A stretch of DNA of 35,542 nt from Myxococcaceae bacterium (GTDB taxonomy: Bacteria; Myxococcota; Myxococcia; Myxococcales; Myxococcaceae): assembly GCA_019694575.1 (NCBI GenBank), contig JAIBBR010000047.1, positions 1 through 35,542 on the forward strand. Direction: 5' to 3'. Shown here one piece after another: positions 7,246 to 35,540 of the stretch (positions are counted from its first letter, which is position 1; each line of letters begins with the position of its first letter). A program made the translations under genes and the position numbers. The notes below the pieces were generated by a model. It did not search any database. It saw nothing but the letters and a program-made list of their open reading frames with translations, and had not been told where the DNA came from.

Positions 7246-8607
7246 ATGGCCAACGGACCTTCAATACCTGCCCACACCGTTTTAGGCACCCGGCCCAAGG
7301 TCGACCGCATTGCTTCGCAGGAATACCACCTGGTTCTGGTCAACACCGACGCGGCCGGCAAATCGTTCGACTTGGGTACTTCTTTGCGCATCGGCAAGGC
7401 ACCCGACAACGAAGTGGTGTTAGACCACCCGACCGTCAGCCGCAACCATCTCATCGTTCGCCGCCAAGGCGACCAATTTTTGGTGCAAGACTTGGGTTCG
7501 ACCAACGGCACCTTCATTGACGGAGCCCAAGTGCGCGAAGCTTTTCTGCGTGCGGGCGCGCTGCTCGAGGTAGGCGATGTGCAGCTGCGTTTTCAGCCTC
7601 AGGTGAAAGCGCTCGACCTTTCACCCGCCGCCGAAAACCGTTTGGGCGACTTGGTGGGCAAGAGCACCGCGATGCGGCAAATTTTCGCGCTGATGCAGCG
7701 CATTGCACCTACCGACTCGACCCTGCTTCTCGTCGGCGAAACCGGCTGCGGCAAAGGCGCGGCGGCGAAAACGATTCACAAACTCTCGCCCCGTGCGCAA
7801 GGCCCGTTCATCGTCTTCGATTGCGCGTCAGTCTCTGACTCTCTGATTGAGAGCGAGCTCTTCGGCCACGAAAAAGGCGCCTTCACCGGCGCGGTGAACC
7901 AACGCACCGGCTGTTTGGAGCGGGCCGACGGCGGCACACTTTTTTTAGACGAAATCGACGACCTCTCGCTCGACTTGCAGCCCAAGCTGTTGCGCGCGCT
8001 GGAAGACCGCGAGTTCCGCCGGCTCGGGGCTTCGACTTCTCCCATCAAGTTCGACACCCGGGTCATCGCCGCGTCGAAGAAAGACTTGTGGGCAGAAACA
8101 CAGGCGGGGCGGTTTCGCGAAGACTTGTACTTTCGTCTCTCGGTCTTCATCGTCGGCCTGCCGTCATTGCGCGACCGCAAAGAAGACATTCCCCTGTTGG
8201 TCAACGCGTGCGCTGGCAATTTGCTGTGGGAGCGGTTGCCCCAAGCACGCCGCGAGCAATTTTCGAATCACACCTGGCCGGGCAACGTGCGTGAGTTGAG
8301 AAATGCCGTCGAACGGCTCAAGCACATGGCCGATATTCCCGAGTTGGCCACCGAGTCATTCTTGCGCGAGTACAACGGGCCGGCCGCGCCTCAGGGCGAG
8401 AGCTTGCCAGTCAATTACGCGGGGCCGTTCAAAGAGTGCAAAGACGAGCTGGTGCGAGCGTACGAGAAAGAGTACCTGACCCGGTTGCTCTCGAAGTCAA
8501 AGGGTAACATCGCCAAGGCGGCGCGCGATGCAGGGTTAGACCGCAAGCATCTGTACTCGCTGCTTCACAAGTATGAGCTGGTGCAGAGCCCCGGCGAGCC
8601 CGAGTGA
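7246..8607 (+). CDS. FHA-domain sigma54-dependent transcriptional regulator
   Basis: This 453-residue protein has three parts. An FHA domain at about 45-115 carries the phosphothreonine-recognition motifs LRIG, SRNH (65-68) and STNGTF (85-90). A sigma54-activating AAA+ domain at about 133-370 has Walker A GETGCGKG (164-171), the sigma54-contacting loop GAFTGA (211-216) and Walker B TLFLDEID (231-238). A Fis-type helix-turn-helix near the end contains NIAKAARDAGLDRKHLYSLL. It should bind an upstream enhancer and drive sigma54 promoters when its FHA domain reads a phosphorylated partner, probably a Ser/Thr kinase target. Such FHA-type activators are characteristic of myxobacteria. Key motifs are intact, so it is probably active. 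Its targets are unknown; the divergent methyltransferase-msrP operon is a positional candidate only. Confidence 0.95.
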   Translation: MANGPSIPAHTVLGTRPKVDRIASQEYHLVLVNTDAAGKSFDLGTSLRIGKAPDNEVVLDHPTVSRNHLIVRRQGDQFLVQDLGSTNGTFIDGAQVREAFLRAGALLEVGDVQLRFQPQVKALDLSPAAENRLGDLVGKSTAMRQIFALMQRIAPTDSTLLLVGETGCGKGAAAKTIHKLSPRAQGPFIVFDCASVSDSLIESELFGHEKGAFTGAVNQRTGCLERADGGTLFLDEIDDLSLDLQPKLLRALEDREFRRLGASTSPIKFDTRVIAASKKDLWAETQAGRFREDLYFRLSVFIVGLPSLRDRKEDIPLLVNACAGNLLWERLPQARREQFSNHTWPGNVRELRNAVERLKHMADIPELATESFLREYNGPAAPQGESLPVNYAGPFKECKDELVRAYEKEYLTRLLSKSKGNIAKAARDAGLDRKHLYSLLHKYELVQSPGEPE

Positions 8608-11664: not shown

Positions 11665-12567
11665 CTACCAATCGCCCTGCGGAGCTGCGACCTGCGCGCG
11701 CTCGAACCACGCGCGCATGTCTGCCGGCAAGGGCGCGTCGATTTGCGTACCCAGCACGCGCAAACTTTGCGCATGGAGCAAGCAACGCGAAGCAGCAGGC
11801 AACCCCCGCATCGACGCGTCGGTCGGGCCCTCGTAGAACGCGTCGCCCCAAATTGGGGCGTCGAGCGCTCGCAAGTGCGCGCGCAGTTGATGGGTGCGGC
11901 CGGTGAGTGGGTAGAGCGCCACCAACGAAAAATCAGCAGCAGCATGGAGTCGCTCAAAGCGCGTCTTGGCCTCCATGCCGTTCGCTTTCGCGCTCGCCCG
12001 CCAGCGACCTAACCGCGAAGGGTCTTTCGAAAGCTTCAGAGAAATGTCTCCGTGCTCCGGTAACGGCCCCGACGCCACCGCCACGTAACGTTTGCGCGCG
12101 GTGCCTTCTCGAAATGCTTCTGCCAATTCGCGCGTGCCCTCGCGCGTCTTGCCAAACACCATGACGCCGCTCGTCTCTTTATCGAGCCGGTGCACCAGCC
12201 CTGCGGGTTTCTTCAAATAATCGCTCACCGCGTCGAGCAACGAATCGCCCCGCTTGCCCTGAGTCGGCTGCGACACCCAACCCGCCGGCTTGTTCACCGC
12301 CAGCCAATCAGCGTGCTCCTCTAAAATGTCGAGCGAGAAAGCGTTTACCTTCGCCAACTCCGGCGTTTGCCCTGCCTCAGAGAGCACCACGCTCACCGTC
12401 GTGCCTTGGGCGAGCAAGGCGCCTTGTTCCACCGCGCGTTTGCCCTGCACATAAACAGAGCCTCGCTCAATCAGCGCAGCCGCTTGACTCGCTGCAACAT
12501 CGAGCTCGGCGGCGAGCGCATCACGCAGACGTGCCTTGGTGGCGATGACGAAGGTTCGACGTTTCAC
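11665..12567 (-). CDS. RluA-family pseudouridine synthase
   Basis: Enzymes of this family isomerise specific uridines to pseudouridine in 23S rRNA or tRNA. The 300-residue protein has an N-terminal S4-like RNA-binding segment (about 10-60, with ASQAAALIERGSVYVQGKRA) and a catalytic domain from about 80. The signature HRLDKETSG is at 126-134 with catalytic Asp129. The later motifs RKRYVAVASG, ALYPLTGRTHQLRAHL and PIWGDAFYEG match the family. The substrate site (RluC, RluD or another type) cannot be chosen by eye. Length is typical. The ATG at 12567 faces the divergent peptidase-like gene across about 50 bp. Confidence 0.93.
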   Translation of the reverse strand: MKRRTFVIATKARLRDALAAELDVAASQAAALIERGSVYVQGKRAVEQGALLAQGTTVSVVLSEAGQTPELAKVNAFSLDILEEHADWLAVNKPAGWVSQPTQGKRGDSLLDAVSDYLKKPAGLVHRLDKETSGVMVFGKTREGTRELAEAFREGTARKRYVAVASGPLPEHGDISLKLSKDPSRLGRWRASAKANGMEAKTRFERLHAAADFSLVALYPLTGRTHQLRAHLRALDAPIWGDAFYEGPTDASMRGLPAASRCLLHAQSLRVLGTQIDAPLPADMRAWFERAQVAAPQGDW

Positions 12568-12620
12568 GGGTGGTTTTTAAGCACTTGAGTCGTACGGCGT
12601 GAACGCGCGATCATGCCGGT

Positions 12621-14120
12621 GTGGCGTTCTCTGTTAACAGCCTGCTCGAAAGGCTTGAAGCATTTCTCTACGCGCGAGGTGCCGCTGCGTACCGTGCCGC
12701 CGCCGGTCTGCCGGGTACGGTGACGTACGAAAGGCGCTATCGTGATTTTCCCGAGCTGACCGTTCACGACACTTTTCGCGAGCTGCGAGAGCACGTCGAC
12801 AACCCACGCTACGACCCTGAACGCAAACACCGGCTGCGTCTGGTGTTGGCCACCTTCGCCGACGCTCTCGAAGAATCGGCCGCCATTGCCCCACTTGACG
12901 CGCAAGCAGCAGTGCTCTTGGCCGAAGTTCCCGGTTTCGCCGGGCGCTCACTGCGCACGCTCATGGGCCAGTGGGAGCGTGAAGGCGACCGCGCCCAACG
13001 CCATGCAATGACGCAAGCCGCCTTCGCTGAGCTCTCTACCCAACCAACCGCCTGGCGCCGCCGTGTCGACGCGCAAATGCAGCTCGCCGAAACACTCAAG
13101 CTGCCCAACTGGAAAACCTTTCGCTCCACTTCGGGCCCTTACCCGCTCGAAGGTTTCGAGCAGCTCACCCACCACGTGCTCAAAGCCAGCGACGACGCGT
13201 ACCGTGACTTGCTCGGCTACGTGCTCAAGCACGCCCACGTCGACACGCCGATTGAAAGCCCGCTGCTCCACGACGTGCAGTACGCGTCGAATGCACCCTG
13301 GGTGCGCGATTCTTTTCGCCCCGAAGACGCGCTTACCGCCGTCACCCGTTGCCTAGAAGACATCGGGTTGCCTCCCCACGCGCAGGGCCGCTTGGCGGTC
13401 GACTCCGAGCCGCGCGAAGGTAAAGAACCCGGCGTTCATTTGGCGGTGCTCAAAGCTCCCGAAGAAGTGCGACTGGTGATTTCTCCGCGCGGGCATTTGG
13501 GAGGCCTGGCTGAATTGCTCGGCGGTTTCGGAGCGGCGCTCTACCACGCACACGTTTCACCCCGGCTGCATTTGCCCGAGCGCGCGCTCGCAGACCCCAC
13601 CTTGCCGGCCGTTTTTTCGGCCCTCTTCTCGCGCTTGCTCACTGACGAAGGTTGGTACCGGCGCTATTTGCGCTTGGGAGCCCCCGCGGCACGAGAAGCG
13701 GCCCGCCTCGCCGCGTTTCGCCAGCTCTTCGAATTGCGGTGGCTCACCGTGCGCGCGCTGCACAGCTTTGAAATGTACGAGCGAGGCCCGGTACCTCCGT
13801 TGGCGTCGAGCTACGAAGAGCGCGGGCGTGAAGCGTTGCACGTGGGCGGCATGCGCGAACGGTACTTGTACGACGTTCAGCAGGGGCTCGATGTCTTCAC
13901 CGCGCTGCGCGCCATGGCGCTCGAAGCGGGGCTGCACCGGTATGTACAAGAGAAATTCAACGAAGACTTTTACCGCAACCCTGCCACTGGCCGCTGGCTC
14001 TCGGCATTCGCCGCCTCGGGGCAAGCCGACACCACCGAGAAAATGATGGCGCCTCTGGGGGCTTCGCTCACCGCCTTTGACGCGGCCAGCCAGCGGCTGG
14101 TCCGCGTGATGGCAGCCTAA
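12621..14120 (+). CDS. M3-peptidase-like protein with a degenerate zinc motif (probable pseudopeptidase)
   Basis: The 499-residue protein has the overall helical layout of PepF/oligoendopeptidase F-type M3 metallopeptidases. The block PREGKEPGVHLAVL (264-277) matches the conserved RxGKxxGAF segment that precedes the active site. It is followed at about the expected distance by GLAELLGGFGAALYHAHV, aligning with the HEFGHALH zinc helix, here GGFGAALY at 301-308. Both His ligands and the catalytic Glu are replaced, so peptidase activity by the known mechanism is not expected. A C-terminal helical part containing LFELRWLTVRALHSFEMYER and YVQEKFNEDFYRNPATGRWL fits M3/M32-like folds. It may be a binding or scaffolding protein. 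The start is GTG at 12621. It converges on a small unknown gene 8 bp downstream. Confidence 0.75.
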   Translation: MAFSVNSLLERLEAFLYARGAAAYRAAAGLPGTVTYERRYRDFPELTVHDTFRELREHVDNPRYDPERKHRLRLVLATFADALEESAAIAPLDAQAAVLLAEVPGFAGRSLRTLMGQWEREGDRAQRHAMTQAAFAELSTQPTAWRRRVDAQMQLAETLKLPNWKTFRSTSGPYPLEGFEQLTHHVLKASDDAYRDLLGYVLKHAHVDTPIESPLLHDVQYASNAPWVRDSFRPEDALTAVTRCLEDIGLPPHAQGRLAVDSEPREGKEPGVHLAVLKAPEEVRLVISPRGHLGGLAELLGGFGAALYHAHVSPRLHLPERALADPTLPAVFSALFSRLLTDEGWYRRYLRLGAPAAREAARLAAFRQLFELRWLTVRALHSFEMYERGPVPPLASSYEERGREALHVGGMRERYLYDVQQGLDVFTALRAMALEAGLHRYVQEKFNEDFYRNPATGRWLSAFAASGQADTTEKMMAPLGASLTAFDAASQRLVRVMAA

Positions 14121-25753: not shown

Positions 25754-26854
25754 TTGAGCCCATTTCACTGGCGCTCTGAGAGTGAAGAAGCTGCGCCCAC
25801 GCATTGGCTCGACGTCGACGATGGGCTGCGCGCTGACGTGGCGGTGCGACGGGCACGCGCGGGCGAGTACCTTCGCTACACCGGTGATTTTCACAACGCC
25901 AAGCAGCTGTTGCAGGCGATGGGGCGAAGGCTGCCTCAACAGCGCAACCCGAAATCAGCTTTAGAAGCGTTTCGCGCCGAACGCCAAGCGCGGCTCGTCG
26001 AGCACCAGACACTCTCTCGCGTGGTGGTGACGCTCGACGGCGAGTACCGGCTCGCGCTGTCGCGTGCTCCCGACATGGCAATGGCCTGTCGGCAGGCATG
26101 GGGAGACCCGGGCGGGCAAGACACGTTGGTGGCGCTCAAGACGTTGCTCGGTGTGATGAGCGCCGCCGAGTGGCGAAGAAAAGGCCTCACGGTACCCGGC
26201 CTCCAGGGCCCATTGGAGCCGCACTACGGCGTTTTTCTGCCCACCCGCCACGAATACGTCGAGTTGTTGCGCGGAGTGGCCGACGTCACCGGCAAGCGCG
26301 TCTTCGACATTGGCACGGGCACAGGCGTGCTCTCGTTTTGGCTGTTGCAGCACGGAGCGGCGAGCGCCGTCGCCACCGACATCGACCCGCGCGCGGTGGC
26401 TTGCGCGAAGGCCAATGCCGAGCGGTTGAAACTGGGCGCGCGCTTCTCGGTGGCGCTTGGTGAGGGTTTTCCCGAAGGGAAAGCCGACGTCATCATCTGC
26501 AACCCTCCGTGGGTTCCCGAGCCTGCGAAGAACCGCGTCGACCGGGCCGTCTTCGATGAAGACAACCGCTTCTTGCGCAGCTTTCTTTCGGGGCTTGCCG
26601 CGCACCTCAACGAAGGTGGCCAAGGCCTGTTGCTGATTTCTGACTTGGCGGTACTGCTCGGCCTGCGCTCGCCGCAATGGTTAGAGGAGCAATTCGCCGC
26701 CACCCATTTGCAAGTGAAGTGGAAAAAATCGGTGGCCGCACGTCACCCCAAGGCGAACACCAAGAGCGACCCGCTGTACGCCGTGCGCAGGCGCGAAATC
26801 ACCACGCTCTACAGCTTGGTGCCTGACACGCGCGGTGGCCCTTGCTCAACCTGA
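25754..26854 (+). CDS. PrmC-like class I methyltransferase
   Basis: The frame opens with TTG at 25754, 6 nt after the preceding stop, and gives 366 residues. A helical N-terminal region (about 30-150) contains YLRYTGDFHNAKQLLQAMGR. The SAM-binding motif DIGTGTGVLSFWLLQHGA is at 185-202, followed by ATDIDPRAVACAKANAERL. Catalytic NPPW is at 250-253 in DVIICNPPWVPEPA. NPPY/NPPW enzymes methylate amide or amino nitrogens, for example release-factor glutamine (PrmC) or nucleotide bases. The N-terminal domain differs from PrmC, so the target may be a small molecule. Its 3-prime end overlaps the convergent DedA gene by 46 bp. The TTG start is tentative because it has no strong ribosome site. Confidence 0.85.
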   Translation: MSPFHWRSESEEAAPTHWLDVDDGLRADVAVRRARAGEYLRYTGDFHNAKQLLQAMGRRLPQQRNPKSALEAFRAERQARLVEHQTLSRVVVTLDGEYRLALSRAPDMAMACRQAWGDPGGQDTLVALKTLLGVMSAAEWRRKGLTVPGLQGPLEPHYGVFLPTRHEYVELLRGVADVTGKRVFDIGTGTGVLSFWLLQHGAASAVATDIDPRAVACAKANAERLKLGARFSVALGEGFPEGKADVIICNPPWVPEPAKNRVDRAVFDEDNRFLRSFLSGLAAHLNEGGQGLLLISDLAVLLGLRSPQWLEEQFAATHLQVKWKKSVAARHPKANTKSDPLYAVRRREITTLYSLVPDTRGGPCST

Positions 26855-27408
26855 TTCTTTTTCGCGTTGACGCGGCGTTTCCACACCCACAACAGCCACG
26901 CGACAACGAGAACGGCCACCGCCACCAGTGTCCATTGACTGGGCACACGCTCATACGCATTCATCGCCCCTTCACCGATGGCGATGGCAAAGAACGCCCA
27001 GGCAGAAGCACCGACGACGTTGGCGAGCCAGAATTTCAACGCCGGCATGCCACCGGTTCCCGCGATGAGCGGAACGAAGGCCCGCGTCGGCGCCAAGAAG
27101 CGGCCGAGAATGACCGCGAACGCACCCCAACGTTGAACGAAACGTTCGGCGCTCGCCATGGCCGACGCGTGCCGTGCAAACCAGGGCTGTAAAAAGCTCA
27201 CGCGGTGCAGCCGCCCTCCTAAGAGATAGCTCAGGCCGTCACCGACAAAGGCGCCCGCAGCGGCGGCCACCAGCACGCCCCAGTAGCTCAACTTGCCCGT
27301 TTGAGCGGCCGCACCTGCCGCGGCCACCGCCGTGGTGCCGGGCACGAGCAAGCCAATAATGGCCACCGCTTCGAGAAATGAGACCGCAAAGACACCGAAG
27401 TACGGCAT
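26809..27408 (-). CDS. DedA/SNARE-associated family membrane protein
   Basis: GGAGG at 27417-27421 lies 8 nt before the ATG at 27408 and sets the start; a longer in-frame extension is Arg-rich and out of character. The 199-residue protein has the DedA pattern: an early GLLVPGTTAVAAAGAAA re-entrant segment (19-35), GRFLAPTRAFVPLIAG (102-117), MPALKFWLANVVGASAWAFF, and a final membrane segment VAVAVLVVAWLLWVW. DedA proteins flip lipids such as undecaprenyl phosphate or phosphatidylethanolamine across the inner membrane and support envelope homeostasis. The conserved GRFxPxxR motif is intact. The tail overlaps the convergent methyltransferase gene by 46 bp. Confidence 0.93.
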   Translation of the reverse strand: MPYFGVFAVSFLEAVAIIGLLVPGTTAVAAAGAAAQTGKLSYWGVLVAAAAGAFVGDGLSYLLGGRLHRVSFLQPWFARHASAMASAERFVQRWGAFAVILGRFLAPTRAFVPLIAGTGGMPALKFWLANVVGASAWAFFAIAIGEGAMNAYERVPSQWTLVAVAVLVVAWLLWVWKRRVNAKKNQVEQGPPRVSGTKL

Positions 27409-27416
27409 CACGAATC

Positions 27417-27421
27417 CCTCC
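27417..27421 (-). promoter_or_regulatory. Ribosome binding site GGAGG of the DedA gene
   Basis: GGAGG on the minus strand, 8 nt upstream of ATG 27408 and 5 nt upstream of the adjacent in-frame GTG. Either could be used, but both exclude the long upstream extension. Confidence 0.75.
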
Positions 27422-27481
27422 GGGCCTGCGAGCGCTCCCACTTCGCACCTTCTTGAACGGAGGTGGCGAGGGCACTGCCGT

Positions 27482-27892
27482 TTACTGCGAAGGGAAAATG
27501 GTCGGCGCGCCGAGCAGCCGGTCTTCGATGCGCTCTTCAGACTCTGGCGAGAAGCCACTGACGAGGTTCAAGTCACGCAGCGCTTCGCGGCCCGTCACCA
27601 CCCACCCCTGTAAATGAATGGCTTGCTCCACTTCAAGCATCAGCCGCTGGGCTTCCGTTCGCGCCGCTTCGATTTTCGGGTTGGGGCCCTTGTCGAATAG
27701 CTCGGTGTTGGCCTTGTGAATGGCCCGCCTCGCCGCCGCCAAATCGCGCGGGCCTACGTACCCATCGGTCATGTCCTTAAATTGTTTTTCATTTATCAAC
27801 TTGGCGTCGCGTACCGGGGCGGCGTGTGTTTCCACTCCACGGCGGTTGTAGTTGTTGAGCGCTAAGTTGGGCTTCTTGTTGCGAATGTCCAT
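27482..27892 (-). CDS. Small hypothetical protein
   Basis: From the ATG at 27892, with GGAG six bases upstream, the product has 136 residues: MDIRNKKPNLALNNYNRRGV, a polar linker, then helices in DLAAARRAIHKANTELFDKG and IEAARTEAQRLMLEVEQAIH, ending with ESEERIEDRLLGAPTIFPSQ. There is no signal peptide and no recognised domain. The composition suggests a soluble helical protein. It precedes the DedA gene in the same direction by 73 nt and may share its transcript. Confidence 0.7.
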   Translation of the reverse strand: MDIRNKKPNLALNNYNRRGVETHAAPVRDAKLINEKQFKDMTDGYVGPRDLAAARRAIHKANTELFDKGPNPKIEAARTEAQRLMLEVEQAIHLQGWVVTGREALRDLNLVSGFSPESEERIEDRLLGAPTIFPSQ

Positions 27893-27976
27893 TGACGACT
27901 CCAAGGTGTTGAAGGGTTATCGCACAGAGCCCACTATCAGTTGTGATCGACCGACGAACCTATAAGCGATTGTTTT

Positions 27977-28417
27977 TTAAGTGTTTTTATGGTGACGTCG
28001 ATGGCCATGCCTGCGCGCATGGAGCTCACGCTCGATGTGCTCGACATGGGCCAATTCGAGCCCAAATTCTTGCTGCAACCGCTCAAATTCGTCTTGCAGC
28101 TCGCGCAGCTTTTCATCGGGCAGCGCTTCTAAGTTGACCAGGCCTGTGCGGGCTCCGCCGACCGCGCGCAACAGCTCGTCGAGCTTCAAGTGCACCGCCA
28201 TCGCGTCGCGGTTCTGGCTGTTCTGAATCAAGAACACCATCAAGAAGGTGACGATGGTGGTACCGGTGTTGATGACCAGCTGCCAGGTGTCTGAAAAATG
28301 AAACATCGGGCCGCTTAAGCCCCACACCGCCACCACGCCAAGCGCAGACATGAAGCTCGCGGGCAACCCCACCATGTGGGCAGTGGCGTGGGCGAGCTTG
28401 CGAAAGACTTCATTCAT
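27977..28417 (-). CDS. Low-affinity iron permease-like membrane protein
   Basis: The 146-residue protein matches the bacterial low-affinity iron permease-like family (PF04120). It starts MNEVFRKLAHATAHMVGLPA and has membrane segments around AVWGLSGPMFHFSDTWQLVI and INTGTTIVTFLMVFLIQNSQ. The conserved QNSQNRDAMAVHLKLDELLR motif follows the second membrane segment. A helical, charged C-terminal part with a His-rich end (ARRHGHRRHHKNT) follows. The metal-transport role comes from fungal Fet4 homology and is not established for short bacterial members. The His-rich tail is a plausible metal-binding element. It diverges from the downstream lipoprotein gene. Confidence 0.9.
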   Translation of the reverse strand: MNEVFRKLAHATAHMVGLPASFMSALGVVAVWGLSGPMFHFSDTWQLVINTGTTIVTFLMVFLIQNSQNRDAMAVHLKLDELLRAVGGARTGLVNLEALPDEKLRELQDEFERLQQEFGLELAHVEHIERELHARRHGHRRHHKNT

Positions 28418-29051: not shown

Positions 29052-29291
29052 ATGACCGAAGACATTCGAAACATCGTCAAAGAGCACGGCCGGCTTTCGG
29101 TCGACGTCGCCAGCCTCACCGATGACGCCGACTTGTACGCCGCGGGCCTCACGTCACACGCCAGCGTCAACTTGATGCTCGCACTCGAAGCGAAATTCGA
29201 CATCGAGTTTCCCGAGCGCATGTTGCGCCGCAAGTCATTCGAAAGCATCGCCGCGATGAAGGCGGCCATTTCTGAATTGGTGCCCCAATGA
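29052..29291 (+). CDS. Acyl/aminoacyl carrier protein
   Basis: The 79-residue protein has the four-helix carrier-protein pattern: ADLYAAGLTSHASVNLMLAL at 26-45, with Ser35 at the phosphopantetheine attachment position. The usual DSL triad reads TSH here, as in carrier proteins of amino-acid-charging systems rather than fatty-acid ACP. FDIEFPERMLRRKSFESIAA and AAISELVPQ complete helices III and IV. It should carry an aminoacyl group as a thioester. It is the first gene of a six-gene cluster and overlaps the next gene by 4 nt (ATGA). No strong ribosome site is visible before ATG 29052. The stand-alone form and position next to the amino acid:carrier ligase make it the ligase's probable substrate. 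Confidence 0.9.
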   Translation: MTEDIRNIVKEHGRLSVDVASLTDDADLYAAGLTSHASVNLMLALEAKFDIEFPERMLRRKSFESIAAMKAAISELVPQ

Positions 29292-30445
29292 GTGCTCTGC
29301 GAGAAAACCTTGTCGCCCAAGCCAAAAAAATTGGCGAAAAAGTCGTCGCTGCCCACGCCGCTGACGTCGACGCCACGGCCCGCTTTCCCACTGAGTCATT
29401 CGCCGCGCTGAAAGAAGCCAAGCTGCTCTCGGCGATGGTGCCCAAAGCACTCGGAGGCCCAGGCGCCACTGTCTCTGACATCGCCGCGGTCTGCACCACG
29501 CTCGGCCATTATTGCGCGTCGACCGCGATGGTGTACGCCATGCACCAGAGCCAGGTGGCCTGCATCACTCGCCATTGCGGCAGCTCTGCCTGGCAGAAAA
29601 ACTTCATCGCCGAGATGTGCAAGCAAGAGCTGTTGATTGCATCGGCCACGTCAGAAGCTGGCATCGGCGGCGACGTGCGCACTTCGAGCTGCGCGGTCGA
29701 AACCACCGGCGACCGCTTTACCCTCGCCAAAAACGCCACCGTCATCAGCTATGGCGCTCACGCTGACGCGGTTTGTCTGACGGCGCGGCGCACGCCTGAC
29801 TCACCTCCCAGCGACCAAGTGCTGGTGGTTTGCCCCAAGGGTACTTACACCTTGGAACAGACCAGCGGCTGGGACACCCTGGGCATGCGCGGCACGTGCA
29901 GCAACGGGTACTGGCTGCGGGCCAAGGGCTCTACCGAGCAGGTGTTGCCCACGCCCTACGCCGACATTTCAGCGCAGACCATGTTGCCCTCGGCGCACGT
30001 GTTTTGGGCGTCGCTGTGGCTGGGCATTGCCTCAGATGCCCTAAATCGCTCGCGCCTTTTCATTCGAGGAGAAGCGCGCAAGAAGCCAGGCTCCGTTCCT
30101 CCTGGCGCGGTGCGGCTCGCCGAGGCCAGCAACCAATTGCAATTGATGCGCGCCAACGTCACCGACTGCGCTGCAGCCTACGAAGCGGCGATGGCCACAC
30201 CCGAAGCCACCACCGCGCTCGGCTTCGCCATTCGCATGAACCACCTGAAGACCGGCACTTCACAAATGGCCATCGACGTGGTGAACCGCGCCATGTTGAT
30301 TAACGGCATTCACGGCTACCGAAACGACAGCCCCTTCAGCGTGGCCCGCCACCTGCGTGACGTGCACAGCGCGCAAGTCATGGTTTCCAACGACCGTATT
30401 TTCGGCACCACCGCTTCGCTCCTGCTCGTTCACAAGGAAGACTAG
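29288..30445 (+). CDS. Acyl-CoA dehydrogenase-like flavoprotein acting with the carrier protein
   Basis: The 385-residue protein has the ACAD layout: an N-terminal helical domain with [20 protein letters not shown] and [16 protein letters not shown], a central FAD-contacting block [18 protein letters not shown] (about 114-131), and a C-terminal helical domain including [20 protein letters not shown]. At the place where medium-chain enzymes have the catalytic Glu of YEGTxEI, this protein reads MVSNDRI, so it either uses another base or a different chemistry. Since it is coupled to a carrier-protein gene and an amino acid:carrier ligase, its substrate is probably an aminoacyl or modified acyl thioester on the carrier protein, not a fatty acyl-CoA. 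This is inference by position. It starts within the stop of the ACP gene. Confidence 0.88.
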
Positions 30446-30450
30446 ACCCC

Positions 30451-31380
30451 ATGGCATCGACCCAAGAGCTGAGCCAAGCGCAGCGCGCGTACTTAGACGA
30501 GCTGCTCAAACACGGGCTGTTGATTGAAACCGGCGTCGACGGGCTGTACGGCCGCAGCGGCGTTTTCGAAGACGTGGTTGACCGCTTCAACGTGCTGATT
30601 TCGCGCTACGGCGGTGGCGACGGCGCCGAAGTGATGCGCTTTCCTCCCGCGATTAGCCGCAAGCACTTAGAAGAGAGCGAGTACTTGAAGTCTTTTCCCC
30701 AGCTGGCCGGCACGCTGCACAGCTTCATGGGCAACGACGCTGACCACCTGGCGCTGCTCAAGGCGATTGAAGAAGGCCGCGACTGGACATTGGGCCAAAA
30801 AGCCACTGATGCGGTGATGACACCGGCGGCCTGCTACCCCATTTACCCCACCCTGGCGAAGCGCGGCCCGCTCAAGCCTGACGGCGCGATGGTCGACGTT
30901 TACTCCTATTGCTTTCGCCACGAGCCGTCGGTCGACCCGGCGCGCATGCAGCTGTTTCGCATGCGTGAGTACGTGCGCATCGGCAGCCCGCAGCAGGTCA
31001 TGTCGTTTCGCGAAATGTGGCTCGAGCGCGGGCAGAAGCTCATGGGCTCGCTGGGCGTGCCGGTGAAAATCGACGTCGCCAATGACCCCTTCTTCGGCCG
31101 CGCGGGCCGCATGCTGGCCGTCAACCAACGCGACCAAGGCCTCAAATTCGAGCTGTTGATTCCCATCACCAGTGAAGAGAAGCCGACCGCGTGCCTCTCG
31201 TTCAACTACCACCAAGACCACTTTGGCCTGCTGTGGAAAATTGCCACCCACGATGCGCAAGTGGCGCACACCGCCTGCGTCGGCTTCGGCATGGAGCGCG
31301 TCACTTTGGCGCTCTTCAAGTACCACGGCTTCGACGTCGAGAAGTGGCCCGCCGCGGTGAAGAAGCAGCTCTGGCCTTAA
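30451..31380 (+). CDS. Amino acid:[carrier protein] ligase (class II aaRS homologue)
   Basis: This 309-residue protein belongs to the amino acid:[carrier protein] ligase family typified by Bradyrhizobium Bll0957. These proteins resemble the catalytic domain of atypical archaeal seryl-tRNA synthetase but lack the tRNA-binding domain and load glycine or alanine onto a carrier protein's phosphopantetheine using ATP. The three zinc ligands recur as Cys128 (PAACYPIYP), Glu173 (MREYVRIG) and Cys276 ([12 protein letters not shown]), spaced as Cys131, Glu176 and Cys279 reported for Bll0957. Class II motif 2 is seen in [11 protein letters not shown] and motif 3 in [12 protein letters not shown]. It starts 5 nt after the ACAD gene, and the carrier gene is adjacent, so the charging partner is evident. 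The amino acid specificity cannot be read here. Confidence 0.93.
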
Positions 31381-31392
31381 AGCGCGATACAC

Positions 31393-32379
31393 ATGCAGAA
31401 AAGCGCCCGCATTCTACCGCTCGAGCCGAAAGGCTACACCCCGCACGCGCTGCACCACCCCGAGCGCGCCTGGCCCGAGACGAACTGCTACGTCGATTTG
31501 TGGATAGAGGTGTTGAACGCGTTTGGTTATGAGCCGCGCGCCGCGCTCGCGTTTTGCCTCGAGATGGACTTCGAAGGCGACCAGTGGACATTCTTCAAGT
31601 TTCCCCTGCAAGACTTGAGCGCGCTCTACGGCATCGAAGTGCAAGAGATGGCGGTGTGGCGGCCATTGCAAGAGCACGTGCTCGAGCATGTGGGGCAAGG
31701 CCGCTTGCTGATTGTCGAGATGGACTCACACTACATGCCCGACACCACCGGTACCGCGTACCGCAACGAGCACGTGAAAACGTCTATCGGCATTCAGCAC
31801 ATTGACGCCGGTGCTGAACGGCTCGGCTATTTTCACAACGCTGGGTACTACGGGCTCGAAGGTGAAGATTACCGCGGCGTCTTTCGGCATTTAGAGGCCC
31901 TGAAAGACCCGAACATTTTGCCCCCTTACGTCGAGATGGTGAAGTTCAACCCCGAGCGCGCGCTAAAGGGCACCGCGCTTTACGCCGAAGCGCTGAAGCG
32001 GGTTCGCCAGCGGTTGCACCGCGCTCCGAAGCAAAACCCGTTTCGGCCGTTTCGCGCGCGCTTCAAAGAAGACGTGGCGTGGCTGCACACCCAACCCATT
32101 GCCACTTACCATTTGTACGCGTTCAACACCTTGCGCCAAGTAGGGGCGGCTTTCGAGCTGGCGTCGTCGCAGCTCGACTGGTTGCACACCCAGGTGCAAG
32201 GCGAGTGGAAAGTGGCGCAACAAGCGTTCGCCGACATCGCCGCGTTGAGCAAGTCGCTGATGTTTCAACTGGCGCGCTCGGTGAATCGCAAGAAACCGCT
32301 CGACGCTGAAGCTTCGTTCGACGCCTTCGAGCAGCATTGGGAGCGGGGCATGGCCTGCCTCACCGCACAGTTCCGCTAG
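31393..32379 (+). CDS. DUF1839 family protein, candidate BtrH-like cysteine acyltransferase
   Basis: The 328-residue protein belongs to DUF1839, a family I associate with amino acid:carrier ligase genes. Its first half resembles the BtrH N-terminal/C39-like papain fold: Cys32 in ETNCYVDLWIEVLNAFGYEP followed by a hydrophobic helix, then RLLIVEMDSHYMPDTTGTAY (104-123), His127 in RNEHVKTSIGI, and a late YFHNAGYYGLEG with Asn149 that could complete a Cys-His-Asn/Asp triad. BtrH transfers an aminoacyl group from a carrier protein to an aminoglycoside, so an analogous acyl transfer here is attractive. The second half is helical (KQNPFRPFRARFKEDVAWLH, STYHL-like region, QQAFADIAALSKSLMFQLAR). The BtrH comparison is pattern-based inference. 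It starts 12 nt after the ligase. Confidence 0.82.
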   Translation: MQKSARILPLEPKGYTPHALHHPERAWPETNCYVDLWIEVLNAFGYEPRAALAFCLEMDFEGDQWTFFKFPLQDLSALYGIEVQEMAVWRPLQEHVLEHVGQGRLLIVEMDSHYMPDTTGTAYRNEHVKTSIGIQHIDAGAERLGYFHNAGYYGLEGEDYRGVFRHLEALKDPNILPPYVEMVKFNPERALKGTALYAEALKRVRQRLHRAPKQNPFRPFRARFKEDVAWLHTQPIATYHLYAFNTLRQVGAAFELASSQLDWLHTQVQGEWKVAQQAFADIAALSKSLMFQLARSVNRKKPLDAEASFDAFEQHWERGMACLTAQFR

Positions 32380-32397
32380 AGAAACCAGAGGGGTTCG

Positions 32398-34956
32398 ATG
32401 GCCCGAATTCGTGACGTCAGCGGCATGCGTAAAGTGCGCCTCATCGACGGGTGGGGCTTGTGCGCCACCCAACCCAACGCCGCCTTTGGCCCCGACGCCA
32501 TCGAGGCGATGAACCCGCGGTGGACCCGCGCCCAAGTACCAGGCACCGTGGCGCAAGCGCTGGCCGCGTCGACCGCCTGGAGCCTGGACGACCCGGCGTC
32601 ACTGCACCACCGCGACTACTGGTACAAATGCACTTTCGCTTCAGGCACCGTGCCGGCAGGTGAAGCGCGCACGCTGCATTTCGAGGGGCTGGCGACGTTG
32701 GCCGAGGTGTGGCTCAACGGGCAGCGCATTCTCGAAAGCCACAACATGTTTCACGCCCACGACGTCGAAGTGGCGAAGCTGCTGCAGGGCGAGAACCACC
32801 TCTATATTTTGTTTCGCGCGTTGAACCCGGTGTTGGCGGCGAAGAAGCCCAAGCCCCGGTGGAAACCGCGCATGTTTGAAACCAGCAACCTGCGCTTTTG
32901 CCGCACCACTTTGCTGGGCCACATGCCGGGGTGGTGCCCTTCAGTGCATGCGATTGGCCCGTGGCGCGACATTTGGCTCGAAGAACATTTGGGCCACATG
33001 CGGGTGCTGACCGCCGACGTACGCCCCACTTTCGACAACGGCACCGGCAGGGTGCGGGCGCGCATCAAAGTCGAAAACCTGCCGTCGGGCGGCATTGGCT
33101 GGCTGCAGGTGGGCGACGTCAAAGGCACGTTGGAGCAAGTGGGCGGCGGCTACCTCGAAGGCCAAGTCGACCTGCTCCAGGCCACGGCGTGGTGGCCGCA
33201 CACCCACGGCGAGCCGGCGCTGTACCCCGTTGAAGCGCGCATCGCCGATGCCACGGTGAACCTGGGCCGAACCGGCTTTCGCACGGTGACGTTGGAGCAA
33301 GAAAACGGCACCTTCGGCCTGAAGGTGAACGGCGTGCCAGTCTTCGCGCGCGGCGCCTGTTGGACCACGCCCGACATTGTCTCGCTTGGCTCATCGCGAA
33401 TCGACTGCGACGCACTGCTGCGGCTGGCGCGTGACGCGGGCATGAATATGCTGCGCGTCGGCGGCACCTTCGTTTACGAATCAGACGATTTTTTCGATTT
33501 GTGCGACGAGCTCGGGCTGATGGTGTGGCACGACTTCATGTTCGCCAATTTAGACTACCCAGCCGCCGACACCGAATGGTTGCGCAGCGTGGTGACCGAA
33601 GCCGAGCAGTTCGCTGACCGCTCGCAACTGGCTCCTTCGCTGGCCATGTTCTGCGGTGGCAGCGAAGTCGAGCAGCAAGCCGCGATGATGGGCCTGCCCC
33701 GTGAAGCGTGGAGCAGCCCTCTTTTTCGCGAGGTGCTGCCGGGCGTGACGCAGAAAATTCGCCCCGACGTGCCTTATTGGCCGAACAGCCCTTCAGGAGG
33801 CCCGCTGCCATTTCAAGCCAACCGCGGCGCGACGCATTATTACGGCGTGGGCGCGTATTTGCGGCCGCTCGATGACGCCCGCCGTGCCGACGTACAATTC
33901 GCTTCTGAATGTTTGGCTTTCGCCAACATTCCCGAGCAGAGCACGCTGAGCGAATTGCTGCTCAAGAGCGAAATGCCCTTTCACCACCCGCGCTGGAAAG
34001 AGCGGGTGCCGCGCGACTTGGGCGCCACGTGGGACTTCGACGACGTGCGCGACCACTATTTAAAGACGCTCTTCAAGGTCGACCCCGCCGAGCTGCGTTA
34101 CACCGACATGGCGCGTTACATGGCCTGCAGCCGGGTGGTGACGGGCGAAGTGATGAGCCATGTGTTTTCTGAATGGCGCTCGAGCGGCACGCACACCAAT
34201 GGCGGGTTGGTGTGGTTCTACCGAGACCTGTGGCCGGGCGCGGGTTGGGGCGTGGTCGACGCCAAGGGTGTACCCAAGGCGGCCTGGCACTATTTGAAGC
34301 GGGCCTTCGCGCCGGTGACAGTGCTGGCCACCGACGAGGGGCTCAACGGTTTGCGCATTCACGTCATCAACGAGGGCAGCGAGTCGCTCTCGGCCGACGT
34401 GCGCCTGGTGCATTACCGCCATGGCGAGACACCCATTCACTCGGCGAAGTGCCGGTTGAAAATCGCTGGCCGGGGCCGGGTTGAATTGTGGGGCGCTGAG
34501 CTGTCAGAGCACTTTTACGACGCGACTTATGCGTACCGTTTCGGCCCTCCGGCGCACGACGTGACGGTGGTGTCGCTCTACAATGTGGGTGGTTCGGCAC
34601 CCATCAAGCTCGCCGAGGCGTACCATTTTCCCCACGGGTACAACCTGCTGCCGCGGGGCAACTTGGGGTTGGAAGCACGCGTGGTGTCGACGCGCGGCAC
34701 GTACCAACTGAGCCTGAAGACGAAACGTTTCGCGCAGTCGGTGCACATTGACGACGACAACTTTCGCCCCGCTGATGACTATTTTCACCTCGCGCCGGGC
34801 TCGAGCCGGTTGATTGCCCTCACTCCACTCAAGCCGGGCGTAGAGCCTGACGGCGAACTGCACGCGTTGAACTTGCACACGCCAGTGCGCTTTCGAAGCA
34901 CCGGCGAATTGAGCTCTGCCGAGCAAAAGGCGCTCAACGTAAGGCCCCCGAAATGA
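32398..34956 (+). CDS. GH2/beta-mannosidase-like glycoside hydrolase
   Basis: The 852-residue protein has the GH2 layout: an N-terminal jelly-roll (HHRDYWYKCTF, HFEGLATLAEVWLNGQRILE, 70-115), an immunoglobulin-like domain, and a TIM barrel from about 310 (VNGVPVFARGACWTTPD, RLARDAGMNMLRVGGTFVYE). The acid/base Glu423 is in FCGGSEVEQQ, where typical beta-mannosidases have GNNE. The nucleophile Glu504 is in FASECLAFANIPE. The C-terminal part is a beta-rich extension. No signal peptide is visible, so it should be cytoplasmic, unusual for a polysaccharide-degrading enzyme and better suited to a small glycoside. GAGGGG four bases before ATG 32398 supports the start. Its stop overlaps the following GNAT gene by 4 nt. 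Confidence 0.88.
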   Translation: MARIRDVSGMRKVRLIDGWGLCATQPNAAFGPDAIEAMNPRWTRAQVPGTVAQALAASTAWSLDDPASLHHRDYWYKCTFASGTVPAGEARTLHFEGLATLAEVWLNGQRILESHNMFHAHDVEVAKLLQGENHLYILFRALNPVLAAKKPKPRWKPRMFETSNLRFCRTTLLGHMPGWCPSVHAIGPWRDIWLEEHLGHMRVLTADVRPTFDNGTGRVRARIKVENLPSGGIGWLQVGDVKGTLEQVGGGYLEGQVDLLQATAWWPHTHGEPALYPVEARIADATVNLGRTGFRTVTLEQENGTFGLKVNGVPVFARGACWTTPDIVSLGSSRIDCDALLRLARDAGMNMLRVGGTFVYESDDFFDLCDELGLMVWHDFMFANLDYPAADTEWLRSVVTEAEQFADRSQLAPSLAMFCGGSEVEQQAAMMGLPREAWSSPLFREVLPGVTQKIRPDVPYWPNSPSGGPLPFQANRGATHYYGVGAYLRPLDDARRADVQFASECLAFANIPEQSTLSELLLKSEMPFHHPRWKERVPRDLGATWDFDDVRDHYLKTLFKVDPAELRYTDMARYMACSRVVTGEVMSHVFSEWRSSGTHTNGGLVWFYRDLWPGAGWGVVDAKGVPKAAWHYLKRAFAPVTVLATDEGLNGLRIHVINEGSESLSADVRLVHYRHGETPIHSAKCRLKIAGRGRVELWGAELSEHFYDATYAYRFGPPAHDVTVVSLYNVGGSAPIKLAEAYHFPHGYNLLPRGNLGLEARVVSTRGTYQLSLKTKRFAQSVHIDDDNFRPADDYFHLAPGSSRLIALTPLKPGVEPDGELHALNLHTPVRFRSTGELSSAEQKALNVRPPK

Positions 34957-35540
34957 CGCCGGTGGTGATGGAAAACACCTGGGTGCGCTTGGAGCCGCTC
35001 CACGCTTCGCACCAGGGTTTTCTGCGCATCGCCGCTGATGATGAGAGCGTGTGGACGTACTCGCCCCAAGGCGTGGGCTTGAGGCCGTTAGAGAATTTTG
35101 AGCGCTGGTGGGCAAAGTCGCTCACGTGGGAAACGACGCGGGCCGATTTTCCCTTCGCGGTGTTTCGCCGTGACAGCGGGCAATGGGTGGGCAGCACCCG
35201 GTATTTGAATTTCGCGCCGCATGACTTGCGGGTAGAAATTGGCAACACCTGGTACCAAGCCAACGCGCGCGGCAGCGTGGTGAACCCAGCGTGCAAGCTG
35301 TTGATGCTGGGGCACGCCTTCGAGGTGCTGAAGCTGCAACGGGTAGAGCTGAAGTGCGACGCGCGCAATGTGCAGTCGCGCAACGCAATTGTGAAAATGG
35401 GAGCGCGTGAAGAAGGCACCCTGCGCAAGCACATGGTGCTGGGCGATGGCTACACGCGCGACACGGTGTACTTCAGTGTGCTGGCTGAAGAATGGCCCGG
35501 CGTGCGGCAACGGCTCGAAGCGCGTTGCCGCGACAGTTGA
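34953..35540 (+). CDS. GNAT N-acetyltransferase, RimJ/RimL type
   Basis: The 195-residue protein has the RimJ/RimL-type GNAT pattern: VRLEPLHASHQGFLRIAADD at the start, FPFAVFRRDSGQWVGSTRYL in the central strands, and the acetyl-CoA-binding region around WYQANARGSVVNPACKLLML, where the usual R/QxxGxG/A is relaxed. LKCDARNVQSRNAIVKMGAR follows, then the conserved end EEGTLRKHMVLGDGYTRDTV. It acetylates an amine, on a protein N-terminus or a small molecule. The ATGA overlap with the GH2-like gene puts it in the carrier-protein cluster, where it might finish or protect the aminoacylated product. The stop at 35538-35540 is two bases from the window edge; further cluster genes may lie beyond. Confidence 0.9.
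   Translation: MTPVVMENTWVRLEPLHASHQGFLRIAADDESVWTYSPQGVGLRPLENFERWWAKSLTWETTRADFPFAVFRRDSGQWVGSTRYLNFAPHDLRVEIGNTWYQANARGSVVNPACKLLMLGHAFEVLKLQRVELKCDARNVQSRNAIVKMGAREEGTLRKHMVLGDGYTRDTVYFSVLAEEWPGVRQRLEARCRDS

Follow-up and report, generated by a model that had tools for sequence, protein, structure and literature searches.

Amino acid:[carrier protein] ligases have been known since 2010. One of them, Bll0957 of Bradyrhizobium (PDB 3mey), has reportedly been studied biochemically (work ascribed to Mocibob, 2010), and glycine is said to be its best substrate. A 2022 review called the biological role of amino-acid loading on these carriers unknown (PMC9437257).

A note added in proof in 2010 described a gene neighbourhood in Agrobacterium, that of Atu2574, consisting of a carrier protein (CP), a redox enzyme, a SerRS-like ligase, a conserved open reading frame and a glycosidase, and predicted the aminoacylation of a surface amino sugar (PMC2922099). 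We infer that Atu2574 is a DUF1839 protein. A search of the literature for the locus tags Atu2571-2576 returned only this note and one transcriptome study, and no experimental characterisation of the pathway was found in the literature searched. The preliminary description of the locus discussed here had presented it as a probable uncharacterised pathway. As an unnoticed pathway it does not stand, since both the neighbourhood and nearly the same prediction had already been published.

DUF1839 is named in only one paper of the literature searched. The DUF1839 passages of that paper assign the family a papain fold and a C(T/S)H triad, suggest glycan processing at the cell wall from gene context, and contain no mention of CcbD (PMC10318531). 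CcbD joins a CP-tethered proline to an amino sugar in a ping-pong reaction that proceeds through a Cys thioester (PMC12945683).

Layout and conservation of the cassette

The 35,542 nucleotides analysed here, called the window, fill one entire contig, G000:C90; the assembly has 220 contigs and totals 5.28 Mb. Six genes lie at its end:

29052..29291, plus strand: CP, 79 aa, phosphopantetheine attachment at Ser35 (NF005480/PRK07081, 111 bits, cut-off 72; PF00550, 32.7 bits)
29288..30445, plus strand: ACAD-fold flavoprotein, 385 aa, without the catalytic Glu (PF02771/PF08028)
30451..31380, plus strand: amino acid:[carrier protein] ligase, SerRS-like class II core (NF005479/PRK07080, 510 bits, cut-off 357)
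31393..32379, plus strand: DUF1839 papain-fold protein, putative nucleophile Cys32 (PF08893, 399 bits, cut-off 22.5)
32398..34956, plus strand: GH2 beta-mannosidase-like enzyme, 852 aa, E423/E504 pair (PF22666, 81 bits)
34953..35540, plus strand: RimJ/RimL-like GNAT, adjacent but outside the conserved operon (PF13302, 59 bits)

Place and strand of the six reading frames are as first described, and so is their packing with ATGA overlaps or gaps below 20 nt. The CP and ACAD genes overlap by 4 nt (ATGA), gaps of 5, 12 and 18 nt follow in front of the ligase, DUF1839 and GH2 genes, respectively, and GH2 and GNAT overlap by 4 nt. All six family names hold by Pfam and NCBIfam profile matches. The contig ends 2 bases past the GNAT stop. 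Upstream on the minus strand (26809-28417), one gene encodes a membrane protein with a VTT domain and another a protein resembling low-affinity iron permeases; neither was linked to the operon in the relatives examined.

A DUF1839 alignment was searched against 84,980 species genomes (one genome per species), at least 532 stretches of which encode a relative. The best 80 of these, with up to 10 kb of flank, and the copies from the window's class make up 89 distinct DUF1839 loci. As those 80 are by choice the sequences closest to the query, class and phylum samples chosen without regard to similarity were added. Among the loci with enough flank, a CP gene is found in 78 of 80, ACAD in 77 of 80, the ligase in 75 of 80 and GH2 in 73 of 75. 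The usual order, CP-ACAD-ligase-DUF1839-GH2 on a single strand, recurs in at least eight phyla. A few loci depart from it, such as L081, L107, L120 and L121, with CP and GH2 upstream on the opposite strand. Chloroflexota and Actinomycetota carry the cassette too, and the same five genes are found on annotated plasmids of Rhizobium, Azospirillum, Caballeronia and Mycetohabitans.

The added samples give a similar picture. DUF1839 occurs in 11 of 147 genomes of the window's class, the window's own included, and the ligase adjoins it in all 11 (ten above the cut-off, one cut by a contig end). The second sample consists of 398 evenly drawn genomes of Pseudomonadota, the phylum of the Reinekea isolate G150, which is itself ligase-less. 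DUF1839 was found in 16 of them and the ligase in 27, and 15 of the 16 have the ligase directly adjacent (hypergeometric P ~5e-19 for co-occurrence, calculated over genomes that are not phylogenetically independent).

It is clear that five of the six genes are conserved together far beyond chance. Ligases of this branch do have conserved DUF1839, GH2 and ACAD neighbours, so the idea of a functional cluster survives for this branch. The sixth gene is a different case. Only two related loci have a match to the window's GNAT near DUF1839, in both cases a weak one (L082, 38%; L114, 26%), whereas 76 of the 145 class genomes carry a homologue. In operon-bearing genomes such as G055, G094, G104 and G109 the homologue is on a different contig or more than 1 Mb away. 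GNAT was therefore ruled out as a pathway member, being widespread in the class and unlinked to the operon, and the acetylation step proposed in the preliminary description falls with it; what was read as a six-gene cluster is a cluster of five.

A few loci are unusual. L162 (G479:C2) has two divergent DUF1839 copies about 4 kb apart (7449-8363, plus strand; 12265-13185, minus strand), one inside a complete operon and the other reversed beyond GH2. The ligase of L147 (G348:C23:92354-93265) has an internal TAA, and there is a stop within the ACAD stretch of L058 (489-1631); decay, a sequencing error or a match edge could account for either.

Inheritance and neighbouring genes

Among the matches listed, the nearest relative of the window's operon belongs to a Myxococcaceae MAG, from the window's own family (L042, the same contig as G091), and we accordingly take the host to be a myxobacterium. 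Separate trees of the ligase, DUF1839 and GH2 place the window's operon, together with L032, among alphaproteobacterial copies plus one Steroidobacter MAG, and the ACAD tree is compatible with an alphaproteobacterial placement. A grouping with the remaining copies from myxobacteria fails the AU test (p 1.4e-4 for the ligase, 8e-4 for DUF1839 and 2e-14 for GH2; 0.012 for ACAD). The window's ligase is 64-72% identical to alphaproteobacterial copies, as against 52-57% to the other myxobacterial ones. These identities raised the suspicion of a mosaic operon with a swapped ligase, which is ruled out because DUF1839 and GH2 fall in the same place as the ligase and ACAD does not conflict with that. 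Agreement among the gene trees suggests that the cassette travels as a unit, and the sequence comparisons fit a horizontal transfer of the whole cassette. It is a real, conserved, horizontally moving cassette of five genes.

The gene that usually accompanies the five encodes a tandem alpha/beta hydrolase. In most of 46 loci it comes just after GH2; its product, about 600 aa long, has two alpha/beta-hydrolase domains, which match exosortase-A-associated hydrolases 2 and 1 (TIGR03101, TIGR03100) below both cut-offs. In most Rhizobium loci it is fused behind a Polysacc_synt_3 flippase domain, giving a protein of 1103 aa (for example L124:18883-22194, behind the operon, with equivalents in other Rhizobium loci). 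This fusion gives the cassette a glycan link. Of the 64 loci whose downstream flank reaches 9 kb or more, 57 have the free or the flippase-fused form. In the window's own genome the nearest homologue (44% identical to the L032 copy) is on contig C81, among unrelated genes.

A conserved gene for making the acceptor was also considered. Beyond the tandem hydrolase, no conserved glycosyltransferase or other such partner was found among 175 families in 122 flanking proteins, where the commonest families occur in only 3, and the candidate was dropped. Flanking glycan genes are present in Rhizobium loci and in a minority of the others; just upstream in the window no liposaccharide genes were recognised, and downstream the contig ends. 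Linkage to liposaccharide biosynthesis genes is a trait of the 2010 operon type, but the tie to lipopolysaccharide in particular is weakened, because Chloroflexota and Actinomycetota carry the cassette as well and only a minority of loci are flanked by glycan genes.

Two sets of neighbours deserve mention in their own right. Directly upstream of the operon of Rhizobium sp. NLR16a (L124:8567-11393) are efp, epmA and a lysine-2,3-aminomutase-like gene, epmA encoding another aaRS-like, amino-acid-transferring enzyme. Upstream of the Reinekea operon are a GNAT and formyl-transferase fusion (L095:5615-7219) and an Acetyltransf_6 GNAT (7327-8358).

Predicted loading, oxidation and transfer

Ser35 of the CP is kept in 86 of 86 homologues from DUF1839 loci. 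The window's ligase matches PDB 3mey and 4h2w (E ~1e-92), and its 309 aa comprise the catalytic core only, without a tRNA-binding domain. A motif match to 3mey identifies C128, E173 and C276 as its putative zinc ligands; of 83 ligases, 83, 81 and 83 retain them, respectively, and we take them to be the equivalents of the Bll0957 zinc ligands C131/E176/C279.

The preliminary description called this ligase a Bll0957-type enzyme, which is correct for the family but not for the branch. Bll0957 (3mey) matches the ligase of L150 with 643 bits over the whole query, and the ligase tree splits its branch from that of the DUF1839 operons with full support. In ten Bll0957-type loci (L150-L159) ACAD is beside the ligase in all ten and a CP gene is nearby on the other strand in eight, with neither DUF1839 nor GH2; the genes downstream vary (abhydrolase, aminotransferase, a 291-aa protein). 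Because branches and gene contexts are both separate, knowledge of Bll0957 holds for the window's ligase by family and not by pathway. These loci can represent a second, separate use of an aminoacyl-CP. Two more distant ligases below the cut-off (L160 and L161, ~28% identity) have no CP or ACAD match adjacent and were set aside as belonging to another context.

What if the ligase is lost? In L053, L059, L064 and L095 it is missing from between ACAD and DUF1839 and the other genes are kept. Monophyly of the four loci is rejected (AU p 3e-60 and 2e-71), which suggests repeated loss. No ligase was found elsewhere in these genomes, a result that is reliable for L095 (Reinekea isolate G150), the rest being MAGs, and no replacement adenylating enzyme is evident among the neighbours of the four operons. 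Perhaps the CP can be loaded otherwise, or its cargo is not always an amino acid.

The next enzyme was expected to oxidise the bound group. One part of this stands, in that an ACAD-fold enzyme is conserved, but its chemistry is unlikely to be the ordinary one. The AF2 model (pLDDT 92) matches dehydrogenases and DszC/KijD3-type monooxygenases equally, so that the fold search did not separate the two. The catalytic Glu of acyl-CoA dehydrogenases was sought at both known positions and is absent from the operon ACADs: residue 366 is I/V in 85 of 85 and residue 236 is S/A/T in 86 of 86. From alignments and motif knowledge we take these residues to correspond to E376 of MCAD and E254 of IVD. With the catalytic Glu missing, plain acyl-CoA-dehydrogenase desaturation seems unlikely. 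Glycine, moreover, has no beta carbon to desaturate. Both points together suggest a monooxygenase or a Calpha-N oxidase acting on the carrier.

The transfer step rests on DUF1839. A PDB sequence search with it gave no match, and its relatives came only from fold comparison. Its AlphaFold2 model (mean pLDDT 94.4) has 18 Foldseek matches at E <= 0.001, all of them AziU3/AziU2, CtaG or CcbD. In VIA-align, CcbD aligns over 286 of 328 residues (Z 19.8, rmsd 3.3, ~12% identity), followed by AziU3 (Z 18.6) and CtaG (Z 17.0); the next unrelated row has Z 8.4. No BtrH structure is among the fold matches, which is not evidence against a kinship with BtrH. C32, H127, H148 and H240 are invariant in 90 of 90 sequences, and residue 131 is T or S in all 90. 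C32 is at the start of helix 32-43 in the model, like a nucleophilic Cys at the first core helix. Sequence spacing, like PMC10318531, suggests a C-T/S-H triad, and CcbD has Cys-His-Glu; the His/acid order may differ between the two. The shared fold supports amide transfer by DUF1839, short of proof at about 12% identity. DUF1839 is thus predicted to be a CP-dependent aminoacyl transferase, and its proposed place as the transferase of a CP-based amino-acid pathway is backed by the whole-length match to CcbD, AziU3 and CtaG.

The last enzyme matches beta-mannosidase structures (E 1e-62). E423 is Glu in 77 of 81 copies (Asp in four) and E504 is kept in all 81, both aligning with the acid/base and nucleophile pair of the Bacteroides beta-mannosidase. 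Operon copies are about 41-52% identical, and other plasmid GH2s are mostly below 30%. By these sequence criteria the operon GH2 is a dedicated subfamily, and the enzyme looks cytoplasmic.

Possible products and comparison with known systems

We narrowly favour the view that the cassette is self-contained and links a small amino acid through an amide bond to an amine, which is probably that of an amino sugar. Gene content and order, co-inheritance, fold and catalytic residues are observed; the amino acid, the order of the steps, the acceptor and the product are inferred. By the biochemistry of its family, the ligase would adenylate the small amino acid and load it onto the pantetheine thiol of the CP. 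The ACAD would then oxidise the CP-bound aminoacyl group, mono-oxygenation or Calpha-N oxidation being likelier than desaturation. Fold and conserved residues suggest that the aminoacyl group would next pass to Cys32 of DUF1839 and on to the acceptor amine in a CcbD-like ping-pong. GH2 might cleave or remodel a beta-linked, mannoside-like bond of a glycan acceptor or product. A fifth step, usual but not linked in the window, could be performed by the tandem alpha/beta hydrolase as an editing thioesterase or an esterase. Several findings count against this reading: no gene for making the acceptor is conserved among the flanking proteins, DUF1839 has low identity to CcbD and perhaps another triad order, some operons have no ligase, and the Bll0957 branch keeps CP and ACAD in the absence of DUF1839 and GH2.

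The acceptor might not be a sugar. DUF1839 would then join the (oxidised) amino acid to another amine and release a small metallophore, signal or antimicrobial, with GH2 only activating or recycling a glycosylated form. CtaG and AziU3 are nearly as close in fold as CcbD and, to our knowledge, do not act on amino sugars, and most loci have no glycosyltransferases adjoining the operon. However, GH2 is strictly conserved, with both catalytic residues and as a subfamily of its own, and in Rhizobium the hydrolase is fused to a flippase. On balance such an acceptor is unlikely. It is more doubtful still that the pathway ends with oxidation of the aminoacyl group on the CP and release of a free oxidised amino acid or imine, with DUF1839 and GH2 as a side step. 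CP, ACAD and ligase alone are indeed the core of the Bll0957 branch, but in the window's branch DUF1839 and GH2 are no less constant than these two enzymes, ACAD and ligase, and the trees agree. Finally, it is about equally doubtful that DUF1839 is a hydrolytic, papain-like amidase or thioesterase in a cassette that degrades or edits an aminoacylated glycan: the papain fold, the usual company of a glycosidase and a two-domain hydrolase and the suggestion of cell-wall glycan processing in the DUF1839 passages of PMC10318531 would suit it, but a cell that spends ATP to load an amino acid onto a CP is investing in biosynthesis, the closest folds are CP-based biosynthetic enzymes, papain-type peptidases reach only Z 6-8 against the DUF1839 model, and no signal-peptide-like segment was seen by eye in the sequences of DUF1839 or GH2.

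Amide formation with an amino sugar can be taken one step further, to a specific proposal that we regard as tentative and lean somewhat against as a whole. The product would be a small conjugate not described before, an amino sugar carrying an oxidised glycyl or alanyl group in amide linkage. It would be widespread among soil and aquatic bacteria of eight phyla or more, the cassette would spread horizontally as one unit, and DUF1839 would be a new family of CP:amino-sugar aminoacyl transferases. With at least 532 DUF1839-encoding stretches at one genome per species, the product is probably common. A constant cassette, a CcbD-like DUF1839 and the missing ACAD base together pose a concrete in-vitro question, with a named transferase and an acceptor class.

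How does the locus compare with what has been described? The five kinds of gene of the 2010 operon type (PMC2922099) are all present in the window and in its related loci, which share one gene order; the 2010 example is from Agrobacterium, and no fold was given for the open reading frame. The window's copy differs in that no surface-glycan genes were recognised adjacent to it and an unrelated GNAT lies behind. The present analysis agrees with the 2010 prediction and puts the transfer step on much firmer ground. New are the CcbD-like fold of DUF1839, the missing ACAD base, the co-occurrence numbers, the hydrolase partner, the split of the ligase into two branches and the exclusion of GNAT.

The single enzymes have more distant counterparts. 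Exosortase-A-associated hydrolases 1 and 2 are united in one chain in the cassette's usual partner, at scores below the family cut-offs. The GH2 beta-mannosidases (Bacteroides 2je8; 5n6u) have the same domain order and both catalytic Glu residues, although the operon GH2 forms a separate subfamily. Close relatives of Bll0957 are about 49% identical to the window's ligase, the putative zinc ligands align, and CP and ACAD genes are adjacent in both; however, the Bll0957-type locus lacks DUF1839 and GH2 and has its CP gene on the opposite strand.

The pathways of CtaG (closthioamide) and AziU3 (azinomycin) are carrier-protein-based, and we know of no SerRS-type ligase in either. Both proteins share the fold of DUF1839 (Z 16-19), but their substrates and products are different. 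The lincosamide synthetase CcbD/LmbD (PDB 7yn1, 7yn2, 9dkr) has the whole-length fold and the nucleophilic Cys in common with DUF1839, and its substrates are a CP-bound amino acid and an amino sugar. It differs in its Cys-His-Glu triad, as against the predicted Cys-Thr/Ser-His of DUF1839, with 12% identity between the two and a pathway that is otherwise unlike.
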